A stretch of DNA of 64,000 nucleotides from Kibdelosporangium persicum (GTDB taxonomy: Bacteria; Actinomycetota; Actinomycetes; Mycobacteriales; Pseudonocardiaceae). Below, piece by piece: positions 30,389-42,394 of the stretch. Under the pieces are notes generated by a model. That model saw only the letters and a program-made list of their open reading frames with translations, was not told the DNA's origin and ran no database searches. Position numbers and translations under genes: made by a program. The stretch covers positions 62,001-126,000 of the forward strand of contig NZ_JAAATY010000020.1 of the NCBI RefSeq assembly GCF_013280595.1, in the 5' to 3' direction. How positions within the stretch are numbered: position 1 is the stretch's first letter; each line of letters starts with the position of its first letter.

Positions 30389-31081
30389 ATGGCTCGCCTC
30401 AACTACTCCGAACTCAACGACACGATCCGGTACACGATGTGGTCGGTGTTCCGGGTCGAACCGGGCAAACTGCCCGACGACCGCGGGCCCGCCGCCACTG
30501 AGGCGGAGTCTTACCTCGATGCGCTCGAAGGCAAGGGCGTCATCGTGCGCGGCGTGTACGACGTGGCGGGCTTGCGCGCGGACGCCGACTACATGATCTG
30601 GTGGCATGCCGCCGAGATCGAGCAGGTGCAGGCGGCGTACACCGGGCTGCGGCGCACCACGCTGGGCCGCGCGTCCACGCCGGTCTGGAGCCAGGTCGCC
30701 CTGCACCGGCCCGCGGAGTTCAACAAGAGCCACATCCCGGCGTTCCTGGCCGGGGAGGAGGCACGCAAGTACATCTGCGTGTACCCGTTCGTCCGGTCCT
30801 ACGAGTGGTACCTGCTGCCGGACGACGAGCGCCGCAAGATGCTGGCCGAGCACGGCCAGATGGCCCGTGACTACCCGGACGTGCGCGCCAACACCGTCGC
30901 GTCGTTCGCGTTGGGCGACTACGAGTGGATGCTCGCGTTCGAGGCGGACGAGCTGCACCGGATCGTCGACCTGATGCGGCACCTGCGTGGCAGCACCGCC
31001 CGCCGGCACGTGCGTGAGGAGATCCCGTTCTACACCGGCACGCGGCTGCCCGCGGCCGAGCTCGTGACCAACCTCCCTTGA
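30389..31081 (+). CDS. hemQ: HemQ coproheme decarboxylase (chlorite-dismutase family)
   Basis: A 230-residue protein of the Cld superfamily, the actinobacterial HemQ branch (Rv2676c type). It shows TMWSVFRV near residue 14, [16 protein letters not shown] near 71-86, [18 protein letters not shown] near 131-148, [19 protein letters not shown] near 170-188 and the closing PFYTGTR. HemQ removes two propionates of coproheme to yield haem b, the last step of the coproporphyrin route. ATG 30389 is two bases after cvnD, so hemQ is the last gene of the conservon operon rather than being fused to hemEY. Confidence 0.93.
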
Positions 31082-35353: not shown

Positions 35354-35851
35354 TCACTGACGTTCGCTTACCGTCCCATCGGGGGACACGAATAGGCCGC
35401 CTTGCGGTGTGCCGCCTCCGCACTCCGGACCAGCCGGGTACCGGACTTTCGGAGTGACCACCACCTGGTGCGCGCCGAGCCCGGCACCGGCCGGATCGAT
35501 CAGCGTCAGCGTCACCTCGACCGGCCCGGCCGGGAGTTCCCGCAGGTCGGCGAACGAGTGCAGGCCGCCGGTCGGTGCCATCCGCGCGGCGCACGCGGTG
35601 TCCGGGCCGCCTGACGGACATGATGACGACTTGCCAGCCGTGGAGGGGTAAAACTCGAGTGCGGAGTGCTGACAGGACCCGTTCCAGCATGCGCTCAGGC
35701 GCGCGGAACCGACCTTGGGCGCGTAGGCCGGGTCGACGTCGACGGAGATGCCCTGGCGGATCGCCGCGCCGCTACAGTCGCCGATCTCCGTACCGCACGC
35801 GGTCAGCGCGGCGGTGGCCAGTGCGATCACGGCCGTCAGCTTCCAGTTCAC
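35354..35851 (-). CDS. Small lipoprotein, last gene of the DUF692 operon
   Basis: A 165-residue protein that I do not recognise. Its N-terminus VNWKLTAVIALATAALTAC is a lipoprotein signal with the lipidated cysteine at residue 19. Six further cysteines follow in the mature part, with two small clusters (SACWNGSCQ and SSCPSGGPDTAC), suggesting disulfides outside the cell. GTG 35851 lies 16 bases after the upstream gene's stop, with GTGAGGAC in between; another GTG at 35887 would overlap that gene and hide the signal. Same-strand spacing puts it in the operon with DUF692, but its role there is open. Confidence 0.65.
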   Translation of the reverse strand: MNWKLTAVIALATAALTACGTEIGDCSGAAIRQGISVDVDPAYAPKVGSARLSACWNGSCQHSALEFYPSTAGKSSSCPSGGPDTACAARMAPTGGLHSFADLRELPAGPVEVTLTLIDPAGAGLGAHQVVVTPKVRYPAGPECGGGTPQGGLFVSPDGTVSERQ

Positions 35852-35867
35852 GACTGTGGGACGGTCC

Positions 35868-36218
35868 TCACCGGTTTTTCGTTGCACGCCTGCGTTGCCA
35901 CCAGCTCAGTTTCGGCAGGTGGCCGCGTTCACGCAACCATTCGACGAACGCGCGGGCGTCATCCCTGGCCCGCGAACCCTCGATCCGCGGATAGGCCTTG
36001 GCGTACTCGGTGAACAGCGGGACGAACCTGTCCGCCAGGTCGGCGCAGACGTCCGGCTCGATCATCGCCACGACGCGCCGCCGTTTCGCCCGCAGCGCCT
36101 TGGCCTCCACCTCCAGCCGCCCCGGGTCGAAACCTTTCGGAGCAGGACCATCCGTCAGCAGCGCGCGCAGCAGTTCCGCCTGCTGCCGGGCGAGCCGGTC
36201 CCGTTGCGGCTGGGTCAT
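35868..36218 (-). CDS. Small basic partner protein of the DUF692 enzyme
   Basis: A 116-residue protein with no known domain that I can name. It is rich in Arg and Lys (LEVEAKALRAKRRRVVAMI; closing WWQRRRATKNR) and mostly helical. The ATG at 36218 overlaps the DUF692 stop (ATGA), so the two are translationally coupled. Characterised DUF692 enzymes (MbnB, TglH, BufB) need a small partner protein (MbnC, TglI, BufC) that recognises the substrate peptide. Size, order and coupling fit such a role; sequence similarity to those partners is not evident by eye. Confidence 0.75.
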   Translation of the reverse strand: MTQPQRDRLARQQAELLRALLTDGPAPKGFDPGRLEVEAKALRAKRRRVVAMIEPDVCADLADRFVPLFTEYAKAYPRIEGSRARDDARAFVEWLRERGHLPKLSWWQRRRATKNR

Positions 36219-37018
36219 ATCCGTTCCCGGATCGCTCGCAGCTCGGCCGCCAGGTCGGTGTCGGTGGGGTAGTCGCCGTCGCGTTCCAACAGGACACCGG
36301 GCGGCTTGGTGCGTTTCACCAACTCCGCCAACAGGTCCAGTACTTCCGGCAACACCGGGTGGGTGTGCGTGTCGTGGTACACGCCGTCGTGTTCCTCGCC
36401 GCCCGCGACGTGCACGTAGGCCACACGCTCCAGCGGCAGGTCGTCCAGGAGCTTGAGCGGATCGTGGTTCAGGTTGCGGGCGTTGGCGTACATGTTCGCG
36501 ACGTCCACAAGCAACAGGCAGCCGGTCCGCTCGGTCAGCTCGCCCAGGAACTGCGCTTCGGTGAGCTCGGCGTCCGGCCATTCCAGCAGTGCGGCGATGT
36601 TCTCCAGCGCGAACGGCACGTTCAGGATCTCTTGCACGGTCCGCACGTTCGCGACGAGCACGTCCAACGCCTCACGGGTGCGGGGCACCGGCATGAGGTG
36701 CCCCGAATCCAGCCCGCCCGCCCGCACGAAGCAGACATGGTCGCTCGCCAGCGGCGCATCGAGGACATCGGCCAGTCTGGCCAGGTGCTCGACTCGTTTC
36801 CTGTCAACGGGTTCGGCACCGCCCACGGACAGCGACACCGCGTGCGGAAGCACAGGCAGACCACGTTCCCGCAGCAGCACAACGGATTCCGGGAGGTGGT
36901 CCGGGTTCAGGTTCTCCGCCACCACCTCGACGAAGTCCACCCCCGGCAGCCGCTCGACGGTGATGTCGATCTCCGGGCGCCAGCCGATGCCGACCCCCAG
37001 CTCCCGTGACTCAAGCAC
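36215..37018 (-). CDS. DUF692 family multinuclear iron oxidase-like enzyme
   Basis: A 267-residue TIM-barrel protein, the normal DUF692 length. Likely metal ligands are conserved: His59 in LPHAVSLSVGG, His94 in LASDHVCF, Glu139/Asn140 in FALENIAAL, Asp172 in LLVDVANMYANARN, His203 in YVHVAGG, and His215/Asp216/His218/His220 in YHDTHTHPV, plus Glu245. The usual second His of HLAGH reads Gly here (HVAGGEEH), with His210 available nearby. Known family members oxidise cysteines of ribosomal peptides. GTG 37018 follows GGGGAG eight bases upstream and lies 25 bases after the Cys-tailed membrane protein gene. Confidence 0.9.
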   Translation of the reverse strand: MLESRELGVGIGWRPEIDITVERLPGVDFVEVVAENLNPDHLPESVVLLRERGLPVLPHAVSLSVGGAEPVDRKRVEHLARLADVLDAPLASDHVCFVRAGGLDSGHLMPVPRTREALDVLVANVRTVQEILNVPFALENIAALLEWPDAELTEAQFLGELTERTGCLLLVDVANMYANARNLNHDPLKLLDDLPLERVAYVHVAGGEEHDGVYHDTHTHPVLPEVLDLLAELVKRTKPPGVLLERDGDYPTDTDLAAELRAIRERI

Positions 37019-37043
37019 TACCGCGACTCCCCGCGCATCATGG

Positions 37044-37940
37044 CTACGATCCTCCTCCGCCGCATCCACCGCCGCCACCACCGCAGCTGCTGCTGCTCCC
37101 GCTGCTGCTGCCACTGGAACAGCTGCTGCCGCCACTCCAGCCGATCCCCGCGGCGGCACCTGTCGAGACCGTGGATCCGTTGTCGTACGACCTCAGCCCG
37201 ACGCGTGACTCGCGGAACGACGCCGAGATCGTCACATCCGGGTACGCCCGCAGCCCGTGCCTGGCCACCGCGTCGACCGCGCGCTCGGACCGTTCGCCCC
37301 GGGACGGGTCACGCAGGGCTCGCATGCCCGCACCGGTCGGCCCGGCCTTGATCGGCCGCAACGCGAAGACGATCGTCACGAGCGTCAGGATGAGCAGCAT
37401 GCTCAGGTACCCGACCGGGAACCCGAGGTTGACCCCGTTGATCCAGCGGGCGATGCCGATCACCGCCAGCACGAACAGCGGAAGTGCGGCGAGAGCGGCC
37501 CTGCCACGGGTGCCGCCGTCGAAAAGCAGGCCACGGCGCACAAGGTCGTCGCGGACCTGGTCGTAGTCGGGCAGCTTGTTCAGCGTGGCGAGGTGGTAAT
37601 GCAGGGGACGGCCCGGCCGGCCGGCGACCCGCGAGACGAGCCGGTCCTCCAGCGTGGACTCCGGCACGAACCCGCTGTCCGCGACCGGGTACAGCAGTCC
37701 GTTGCGCTGCACGCGGATCACGTTGCGCTCCACCAGATCCGCCAATGTCGACTCGACCATCCGCGGCCAGCCGCCCGCCAGATACGCCGTCTCGTCGGCG
37801 GTCAGCGGCTCGTGCTGCGCGGCCAGCGGTGCCGACCGGGCCCGCTTGCGCAGCACCAGCGTCGCGACGCACGCGATCACGAAGCCGATGGCGTACAACA
37901 CGATGAAGTCCGGACCCGAAAGGCCCCAAGGGTTCTGCAT
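37044..37940 (-). CDS. TIGR04222-type membrane protein with a Gly/Ser/Cys tail
   Basis: A 298-residue protein. It opens with NPWGLSGPDF and one transmembrane helix (11-30), followed by a cytosolic part of about 120 residues with ADETAYLAGGWPRMVESTL, then two helices (about 149-168 and 176-194). After a segment ending SYDNGST the last about 35 residues are almost only Gly and Ser with Cys274, Cys286 and Cys293. Such low-complexity Cys tails are a hallmark of this family as I recall it, often near DUF692 genes. The tail is the obvious candidate substrate of the DUF692 enzyme encoded next. ATG 37940 follows AGAGGGGAC. Confidence 0.85.
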   Translation of the reverse strand: MQNPWGLSGPDFIVLYAIGFVIACVATLVLRKRARSAPLAAQHEPLTADETAYLAGGWPRMVESTLADLVERNVIRVQRNGLLYPVADSGFVPESTLEDRLVSRVAGRPGRPLHYHLATLNKLPDYDQVRDDLVRRGLLFDGGTRGRAALAALPLFVLAVIGIARWINGVNLGFPVGYLSMLLILTLVTIVFALRPIKAGPTGAGMRALRDPSRGERSERAVDAVARHGLRAYPDVTISASFRESRVGLRSYDNGSTVSTGAAAGIGWSGGSSCSSGSSSGSSSSCGGGGGGCGGGGS

Positions 37941-38009
37941 GACTTTGTCCCCTCTGTGTACGGATCGGCCCGGGGACGCGCGGTTCCCGGGCCGATCCAC
38001 CTCCCCCTG

Positions 38010-38798
38010 CTACCCCCTGCGGCTGCCCTCCGTGGCACAGCCGCTGTCACCCCCCGGTGACGCACCCCTCCGGCCCGACAACGACTCCCGGATCATCTCG
38101 TCCGGGTGGCTGGTGAACCCACCGGCCGCCACCAGCTCGGCCGGTGCGCTCACCCTCGCCCTCCCCACGGCATTGGCCCCCTCGAACGTCCTCGCGCAGA
38201 CCCCCTGCCGGTACAGCGCGTAGGCGATCAGCCCGGTCGCGGCCAGCGCCGCGGTCAACCCGCCGGCCGGCTGGCCGGAGGCGATCGCGTCCAGCCACCG
38301 GACCACACCGATGGTGAACACCGCGACCACCGGAACCATCCCGATGGCCTTGCGGCGCCTGGCCAGCTCGCCGTCCACCAGATACCCCGCGCCGACCAGG
38401 CGCGCGGCCACCTCGCCGACCGCGTCGCTCGCGGCCAGCCGGTGCGTGAGCATCACGATCGACCGGCGCCCGTGCCGTGCCACGTCGGCCATCACGGTGC
38501 GCTCGACCGGGTTCGTCCCTCCCGACGACCTGTCCGCGACCTCGAGATATCCGTCGCGGGACGCGCGCAGCCGGCCGGCGTCGACCAGCTGCGCGACCGC
38601 GGCCTCAACCACTCGCCGCGGACCCCCGGTCAGGCACGCCAGCTCCTGGGCCGACAGTGCCTGGACGGGCGCGGTTGTGGCGGCCGCACCCGAACGAGTG
38701 AGAATGCGAACTGCGAACACGAACAGCAAAGCCATCGAAAACCCGAGCAGATAAATACCGACGAACGTCGGCCCGGGTATTCCCCACGTGTCTTCCAT
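38010..38798 (-). CDS. TIGR04222-type membrane protein without a Cys tail
   Basis: A 262-residue paralogue of the next gene: same opening (DTWGIPGPTF versus NPWGLSGPDF), same helix at 12-31, a matching ACLTGGPRRVVEAAVAQLV cytosolic segment, and two helices near 152-171 and 178-197. It ends GGDSGCATEGSRRG, with only one cysteine and no low-complexity extension. First gene of the operon, ATG 38798 with a purine-rich GGGGGAAG leader. Tail-less and tailed versions side by side suggest a complex in which only one member carries the modified segment. Confidence 0.83.
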   Translation of the reverse strand: MEDTWGIPGPTFVGIYLLGFSMALLFVFAVRILTRSGAAATTAPVQALSAQELACLTGGPRRVVEAAVAQLVDAGRLRASRDGYLEVADRSSGGTNPVERTVMADVARHGRRSIVMLTHRLAASDAVGEVAARLVGAGYLVDGELARRRKAIGMVPVVAVFTIGVVRWLDAIASGQPAGGLTAALAATGLIAYALYRQGVCARTFEGANAVGRARVSAPAELVAAGGFTSHPDEMIRESLSGRRGASPGGDSGCATEGSRRG

Positions 38799-38914: not shown

Positions 38915-39355
38915 TTAGGATTGCTCGTCCGCGCCGTCGTCCGGGCGCAGCGTCAGCGAGATGCTGTTGATGCAGTACCGCTGGTCAGTCGGGGTGGGGA
39001 AGCCCTCGCCCTCGAACACGTGGCCCAGGTGGCTGTGGCACGTCGCACACAGCACTTCGGTCCGGCTCATGCCGAGACTGCGGTCCTCGCGGAGGATGAC
39101 GCTGTCACCGGCGAGCGGTGAGAAGAACGACGGCCATCCGCAATGCGATTCGAATTTCGTCGAACTGCGGAAAAGCTCCGCGCCGCACGCACGGCACGCG
39201 TACACGCCGACAGTCTTCGTGTCGGTGTATTCACCGGTGAAGGCACGCTCGGTCCCTGCCTCGCGGAGCACGTGGTACTCCTCGGCGGTCAGCTGCTCGC
39301 GCCACTCCTGGTCGGACTTGACCACACGTGGCGTGACACCGGTAACGGGCTTCAT
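38915..39355 (-). CDS. msrB: Peptide-methionine (R)-S-oxide reductase
   Basis: A 146-residue MsrB. Zinc-binding cysteine pairs are CRACG and CATC, the substrate region is HCGWPSFFSP, and the catalytic cysteine lies in RYCINSISL near residue 130. It repairs methionine-R-sulfoxide in proteins with thioredoxin as reductant. ATG 39355 is used; a GTG two codons earlier is equally possible given the GGAGG position. It is preceded by a small membrane protein gene with two bases... spacing of six to the ATG. It keeps its place near hemQ seen in M. tuberculosis (Rv2674), here separated by accessory genes. Confidence 0.95.
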   Translation of the reverse strand: MKPVTGVTPRVVKSDQEWREQLTAEEYHVLREAGTERAFTGEYTDTKTVGVYACRACGAELFRSSTKFESHCGWPSFFSPLAGDSVILREDRSLGMSRTEVLCATCHSHLGHVFEGEGFPTPTDQRYCINSISLTLRPDDGADEQS

Positions 39356-39361
39356 GGACAC

Positions 39362-42059: not shown

Positions 42060-42320
42060 CTAGCCAGGTAGGGCGCCGACCGTGTCCCTGATCTGAGTAC
42101 CCAGGCTGCTGGATCCCTGCCGTGCGCAGTGCGCGCAGCAGAAGAACCGGCCCTCGACTTCGACACCGTGGCCGAGAATCCGGCATTCGCAGTGCTCACA
42201 CCGGGGTGCCAGCTTCTGGATCGCGCACTCGAAACTGTCGAACGTGTGGACGTCGCCGGTGACGGTCCGGACTTCGAACGTCATCCAGTACTCGTTGCCG
42301 CACACGTCGCACTTCGCCAT
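42060..42320 (-). CDS. Prokaryotic metallothionein-like cysteine-rich protein
   Basis: An 86-residue protein with nine cysteines. An N-terminal CDVCGNEY pair is followed after 30 residues by CEHCECRILGHGVEVEGRFFCC split around positions 43-64 and AHCAR. The middle CxxCxC and the closing yCxxxC pattern resemble the prokaryotic metallothionein family that binds Zn, Cd or Cu. ATG 42320 is preferred over one three codons upstream because relatives start MAKCDVCG. A zinc-ribbon role in nucleic-acid or protein binding is an alternative. Confidence 0.7.
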   Translation of the reverse strand: MAKCDVCGNEYWMTFEVRTVTGDVHTFDSFECAIQKLAPRCEHCECRILGHGVEVEGRFFCCAHCARQGSSSLGTQIRDTVGALPG

Positions 42321-42394
42321 CTCATGCATGGTCCGAGCGTGCGCGCCGCCGCTGTGGTCGGCAACTCGAGACCGGTCGAACGATTCCGCGGCAC

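Follow-up and report, generated by a model that had tools for sequence, protein, structure and literature searches.

An MNIO operon of Kibdelosporangium persicum with a cysteine-tailed TIGR04222 membrane protein as candidate substrate

The genes of TIGR04222 proteins have recently been described beside genes for iron enzymes of the MNIO (DUF692) family, and the C-terminal cysteine (Cys) segment of these proteins was suggested as MNIO substrate (Antoine et al. 2025, PMC12452194). According to the available part of this paper, about 40% of the signal-less Cys proteins encoded before MNIO genes belong to TIGR04222, short MNIO partners are named PME-type 2, and the tail is placed in the periplasm. 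From Pseudonocardia, a TIGR04222 peptide has been mentioned as part of a putative bacteriocin cluster (PMC5183585, 2016, available part). Here we report on an operon of this recently described, uncharacterised kind in a stretch of 64,000 nucleotides from Kibdelosporangium persicum (contig NZ_JAAATY010000020.1, positions 62,001 to 126,000; hereafter the window), which is part of a 10.35 Mb genome. The operon consists of five minus-strand genes, A to E, running from position 38798 down to 35354; all five tightly spaced, same-strand genes of the original prediction were recovered in place. New is the joint-absence evidence that ties the Cys tail, the partner and the enzyme to each other. In our preferred reading, the MNIO enzyme encoded by gene C and the partner encoded by gene D would modify the Cys tail of protein B, which is probably membrane-anchored and cytoplasm-facing and may, by analogy, receive metal-binding groups; we estimate the probability of this reading at slightly below 0.6. 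No TIGR04222 product was recognised among the titles listed on TIGR04222, DUF692 and MNIO/thiooxazole, a search that left most subscription papers outside; the original prediction likewise named no described product, but the proposal of a modified tail is already contained in the available text of PMC12452194.

Candidate substrate, enzyme and partner

Gene B (37044..37940, minus strand) encodes a TIGR04222 membrane protein of 298 amino acids (NCBIfam TIGR04222, 108.7 bits, cut-off 43), which we infer to be the substrate of enzyme C. Its glycine/serine/cysteine (Gly/Ser/Cys) tail of about 41 amino acids (37047..37169, minus strand) shows three Cys in the translation and ends in CGGGGGGCGGGGS. 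A C-terminal Ser/Gly region with Cys and a gene adjoining that of the MNIO characterize the TIGR04222 subset regarded as MNIO substrates, and both are found in gene B. The AlphaFold2 model of the protein (mean pLDDT 80) contains three hydrophobic helices, and the tail is modelled with low confidence and without regular structure. A Foldseek search of the model against the PDB gave no match below E 1.9, and a GPP34 match of gene B (E 0.011) stayed under the cut-off and is treated as a hint only. The upstream gene A (38010..38798, minus strand), separated by 69 bp from its stop to the start of B, codes for another TIGR04222 membrane protein of 262 amino acids (113.5 bits, cut-off 43). Its C-terminus, GCATEGSRRG, retains one Cys and is thus not wholly tail-less as had been thought; the tail looks eroded, because the first TIGR04222 gene in the same-genus copies L107 and L111 has a CGG-type tail end. 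Neither A nor B matched the DUF2282 signature of the Buf1 bufferin precursor in Pfam at E 0.1. Over two helices and a portion of the domain, the TIGR04222 profile can be aligned with DUF2207_C (hhalign probability 86), and DUF2207_C was matched via Pfam by 2 of 27 members (best E 2.5e-5); the TIGR04222 proteins seem to be remotely related to the C-terminal region of DUF2207 (YciQ) proteins.

Gene C (36215..37018, minus strand), which follows 25 bp after the stop of B, is predicted to encode an intact MNIO enzyme, with a near full-length match to PF05114 (profile positions 1-260 of 263; 283.2 bits, cut-off 25). Its in-frame start is a GTG at 37018, by which the originally predicted start is corrected. 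The residues H60, H95, E140, D173, N176, H204, H216, D217, H219 and E246 (P0003 numbering) are invariant among 17 aligned MNIOs, and we take this set of histidine, glutamate, aspartate and asparagine residues to be the metal ligands. P0003 aligns with PDB chains of DUF692 proteins, MbnB among them. Gene C scores under the cut-offs of the BufB equivalog NF050167 (205.3 bits, cut-off 310) and of the HvfB model (167.7 bits, cut-off 360), and the closest named match to the window MNIO is from Kibdelosporangium aridum (93%). Further MNIO genes without TIGR04222 nearby occur in the same family at loci L063-L069 and have higher PF05114 scores.

Gene D (35868..36218, minus strand) overlaps gene C by an ATGA junction and encodes a basic protein of 116 amino acids, a putative MNIO partner of the PME-type 2 kind, being encoded right after the MNIO and without DUF2063 signature. 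In Pfam it had no match up to E 0.1 and up to E 1 only PqqD (E 0.2), while DUF2063 was matched weakly by 5 of 16 gene D homologues (best E 0.014). The 115-amino-acid partner at locus L288 in Saccharothrix sp. NRRL B-16314, which is similar to gene D (phmmer 4.6e-36), agrees by strain and length alone with the PME-type 2 protein WP_033442786 in the available part of PMC12452194. Gene D is modelled with helices only (mean pLDDT 86), and the top-ranking PDB structure is chain 7dz9_C, the MbnC of the MbnABC complex, a match too weak to be relied on by itself (probability 0.51, E 1.3, TM-score 0.45); a profile search of gene D against PDB sequences returned only a ribosomal protein (E 0.53).

Linkage and joint absence of tail cysteines, enzyme and partner

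The arrangement of these genes is far beyond chance. TIGR04222 (E<=0.001) was found in 287 and MNIO in 255 of 390 genomes of the family; 251 genomes had both, 36 only TIGR04222, 4 only MNIO and 99 neither (Fisher p 5e-56, kinship ignored), where G050, G658 and G662 count as MNIO-bearing, yet contain only a broken MNIO. In a sample of 346 genomes of the phylum, TIGR04222 was over the cut-off in 14 and MNIO present in 18, with 13 genomes having both and five MNIO only; the matches of the sole TIGR04222-only genome (G177) lie at a contig start. Moreover, TIGR04222 was found in 79 of 80 named loci, which are the best 80 of 558 confirmed stretches and hence all close to the window MNIO. The exception, L307, starts at the end of a contig, and every one of the 79 named loci having TIGR04222 encodes a tail that contains two or more Cys. 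The conserved linkage, whose absence had been named in advance as speaking against the original prediction, is accordingly strong (251/390 genomes with both; 79/80 named loci). Cys-tailed TIGR04222 proteins also occur at loci L153-L156 and L159-L162, where the fetched region contains no MNIO and an MNIO is located elsewhere in the genome.

Natural losses of the enzyme gave a second type of evidence. For each genome one protein was considered, i.e. the TIGR04222 protein nearest to the MNIO or, where the fetched regions contained no intact MNIO, the best-scoring one, and tail Cys were counted in the last 50 amino acids with a threshold of at least two. An intact MNIO was present in 117 fetched genomes, 112 of them with a TIGR04222 match, and such a tail was found in 101 of these 112 genomes, or in 106 if any fetched paralogue is counted. 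The corresponding number was 3 of 22 for genomes in which the MNIO is absent (19) or broken (G050, G658, G662), a contrast with a Fisher value of 1e-12 when kinship is ignored. This comparison leaves out G700 and G704, where the gene runs off the contig, as well as five genomes (G172, G031, G474, G342, G145) whose MNIO is intact and whose fetched region was not matched by the TIGR04222 profile; among these, G474 holds a Cys-tailed open reading frame (ORF) that the profile missed. Of the 11 MNIO-bearing genomes below the threshold, five encode a paralogue with a Cys tail within the region fetched, and the rest are five genomes of genus g53 and G162, whose tail contains one Cys. In the g53 loci concerned (L195-L197, L199, L201) an MNIO stands beside a tail-less TIGR04222 protein and no partner was found. 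Cys tails persist in three MNIO-less genomes (G104, G662, G096); MNIO remnants lie downstream in 6 of the 22 MNIO-less rows, including G104 and G662. Seven additional MNIO-bearing genomes were inspected and six agree with the pattern; the Cys tail of G719 sits on a frame split by a stop, and G630 has a partial frame with one Cys. Most g5 genomes lacking the MNIO retain a high-scoring TIGR04222 domain and often Gly, whereas the Cys have disappeared. The persistence of the domain without MNIO therefore indicates that specifically the Cys tail is tied to the enzyme.

The partner follows the same pattern. A partner ORF, searched from start codons, begins at the MNIO stop in all 80 named loci, with an ATGA-type overlap in 57 of them. 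In the whole-genome set, which overlaps the named loci, it was found at 103 of 113 MNIO loci linked to TIGR04222 and at 4 of 15 MNIO loci where the fetched region contains no TIGR04222. The ten TIGR04222-linked loci at which no partner was found are L138, six loci of g53 and three of g5, the latter with less than 1.7 kb of downstream sequence. Among the 22 MNIO-less rows, a search of the adjoining downstream sequence (up to 1.7 kb, less than 950 bases in four rows) gave no partner in 21; the only row with a partner is G050, where the MNIO pieces lie in three frames. Because tail Cys, MNIO and partner tend to be missing together, and linkage is strong, the original suggestion that the tail is the substrate has gained support.

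The Fisher value is inflated by kinship, and trees of the TIGR04222 domain, with the tail removed, were therefore computed. A quick protein tree with 134 rows gave four supported contrasts (mean 3.4 in the same direction, 0.0 opposite, 0.6 without difference; median p 0.25) and a codon tree with 45 rows, mostly from g5, gave five (4.0, 0.0 and 1.0; median p 0.125). A careful protein tree with 65 rows, which were hand-picked from the 134 plus G731 after the pattern had already been seen, gave six (5.1, 0.0 and 0.9; median p 0.0625). Hence, the direction of the contrasts is consistent and the independent events are few.

Membrane topology and competing explanations

Three transmembrane helices (TM1 to TM3) are predicted in gene B, all on the minus strand: TM1 (residues 9-35, 37836..37916), with its N-terminus outside by charge, TM2 (residues 153-172, 37425..37484) and TM3 (residues 177-193, 37362..37412). 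The flanks were analyzed in up to 125 well-covered TIGR04222 proteins of 174 ORFs found. The content of lysine plus arginine per 10 amino acids is 0.19 before and 2.40 after TM1, 2.40 before TM2, 0.64 in the loop between TM2 and TM3, and 2.19 after TM3, which fits an N-terminus outside, a domain inside, a short loop outside and a C-terminus inside. The flank following TM3 is rich in these residues across the TIGR04222 family and is therefore placed inside. A cytoplasmic tail, contrary to the periplasmic prediction in the available part of PMC12452194, is favoured because of these flanks and because the segment after TM3 in gene B is not hydrophobic.

The best surviving alternative, which we nevertheless consider unlikely, is that the same system operates on a tail which ends outside the membrane and is modified before or during insertion. 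It agrees with the published prediction, and a further hydrophobic segment after TM3 exceeds a Kyte-Doolittle value of 1.6 in 34% of the 125 proteins; such a fourth membrane segment would bring the tail outside, as predicted in the available text of PMC12452194. However, the segment after TM3 in gene B contains arginine, histidine and aspartate and is modelled as a short helix of modest confidence, another helix (residues 236-252) is polar and of low confidence, and the charges around TM1 to TM3 fit N-out and C-in. Furthermore, a C-terminal tail is made last and would leave little time for a cytoplasmic enzyme before insertion.

Besides this fourth segment, several observations weigh against a cytoplasmic tail dedicated to the enzyme. 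Tails far from an MNIO carry Cys too, and 490 of 1372 TIGR04222 genomes are without MNIO in the available part of PMC12452194, a looser link than ours. G096, an assembly of 480 contigs, retains Cys tails and no MNIO was found there, while G630 has an MNIO but only a partial TIGR04222 frame with one Cys. In g53, five genomes have the MNIO beside a tail-less TIGR04222 protein with no partner found, and L194 has a Cys tail, yet no partner was found there either; a tail acted on in trans is weakly backed in this genus, because of the four second TIGR04222 loci inspected, three (L208, L222, L223) end with a single Cys and the fourth (L224) was not matched by the profile. Not every MNIO-less row represents a tail from which Cys were lost, some being other paralogues (G718, G726; compare L361): in g26, the proteins of MNIO-less G718 and G726 are similar in length to the Cys-less second protein of MNIO-bearing G719, so that the contrast there may be one between paralogues. 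In the 134-row tree a few of 200 pairings had one opposite contrast, and with supported branches only no tree test reaches a median p under 0.05.

From these points it could be argued that the Cys of the tail stay unmodified, forming a thiol-rich segment for metal binding or redox reactions, and that the MNIO has another target, as Cys tails occur at loci without adjacent MNIO and five g53 genomes retain the MNIO beside TIGR04222 without Cys tail. We regard this as rather improbable, since the Cys are mostly absent where the MNIO is absent although the TIGR04222 domain stays, and there is hardly space in the operon for a further Cys-rich precursor, ORFs similar to gene E being present in only 19 of 101 regions. 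Least probable is that MNIO, partner and tail do not depend on each other functionally and are inherited en bloc, the tail being lost as the locus decays: other neighbours, MsrB among them, keep their place across the family as well, which makes synteny alone weak evidence, and repetitive tail DNA could erode fast, but most MNIO-less g5 genomes keep a strong TIGR04222 domain, lose Cys and often keep Gly, and the link holds in the phylum sample (13 both, 1 TIGR04222 only and 5 MNIO only of 346).

Returning to the tail of B as substrate, the MNIO enzyme and its partner would act in the cytoplasm on the Cys in the Gly/Ser tail of B, with the tail of A as a minor or former target. Protein B would cross the membrane three times with its folded domain and C-terminal tail on the cytoplasmic side and would remain anchored, hence the product would be a modified membrane protein and not a released peptide. 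By analogy to BufB and HvfB, we guess that the Cys are most likely converted to thiooxazole-type (or oxazolone/thioamide) groups, and that the modified tail may bind copper, or a metal like it, on the inner side of the membrane. The four-electron oxidation described in PMC13419390 would correspond to a loss of about 4 Da for each Cys. It might be possible, though we hold the odds to be somewhat less than even, that a DUF2207-related membrane protein is matured in place in this way, with oxidation of the tail Cys in the cytoplasm giving a tethered, multi-site metal-binding tail without described product. Modification of a tail that stays anchored would extend MNIO chemistry to ordinary membrane proteins; sister genomes that possess or lack the enzyme, as produced by the natural losses, allow this question to be tested directly.

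Neighbouring genes and comparison with known systems

The last gene of the operon, gene E (35354..35887, minus strand), is an ORF for a Cys-containing putative lipoprotein with uncertain start, whose frame overlaps the end of gene D; it had no Pfam match at E 0.1. Gene E was set aside as substrate, because similar ORFs were found in only 19 of 101 regions, the window counted. It is predicted to be an accessory outside the conserved core. Upstream of the operon on the same strand, MsrB is encoded (38915-39361, minus strand; SelR domain match). It occupies this position in 70 of 80 named loci, and no MsrB was detected at 14 loci outside the family, hence it is read as inherited synteny. Other genes in the surroundings code for a chlorite dismutase family protein close to the operon (30545-31081) and a Cys-rich protein of 89 amino acids (42060-42329) with nine Cys by eye and without Pfam match at E 0.001.

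Compared with known systems, the operon is closest to the TIGR04222-MNIO clusters in the available part of PMC12452194, with which it shares the two families, Ser/Gly/Cys tails, PME-type 2 partners and the proposal itself. It differs in three respects: there, PME-type 2 partners were assigned to at least 10% of the TIGR04222 clusters and many seemed partnerless, whereas they were found here at 80/80 close loci and 103/113 loci; the tail is located in the periplasm there and, judged by charges, rather in the cytoplasm here; and the test for co-loss of tail Cys, not seen in the available text, is added here. The larger DUF2207 (YciQ-like) proteins resemble TIGR04222 in the colinear domain and two helices, and have Gly-rich ends in L163 and L219, but without Cys in the printed ends. 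The bufferins (Buf1/Buf2) with BufB likewise involve an MNIO of the same broad group acting on Cys, and metal binding is possible in both cases; in contrast to them, the candidate substrate here is a multi-pass membrane protein without DUF2282, and gene D has no DUF2063 match of its own. For bufferins, PMC12452194 reports an absorbance near 305 nm. Finally, the oxazolin system HvfA/HvfB/HvfC (PMC13419390, available part) is similar in its repeated Cys-Gly sites near the C-terminus and in the combination of an enzyme with a required partner, but the oxazolin precursor is a peptide with a secretion signal, while the predicted substrate in Kibdelosporangium persicum would be a protein held in the membrane.

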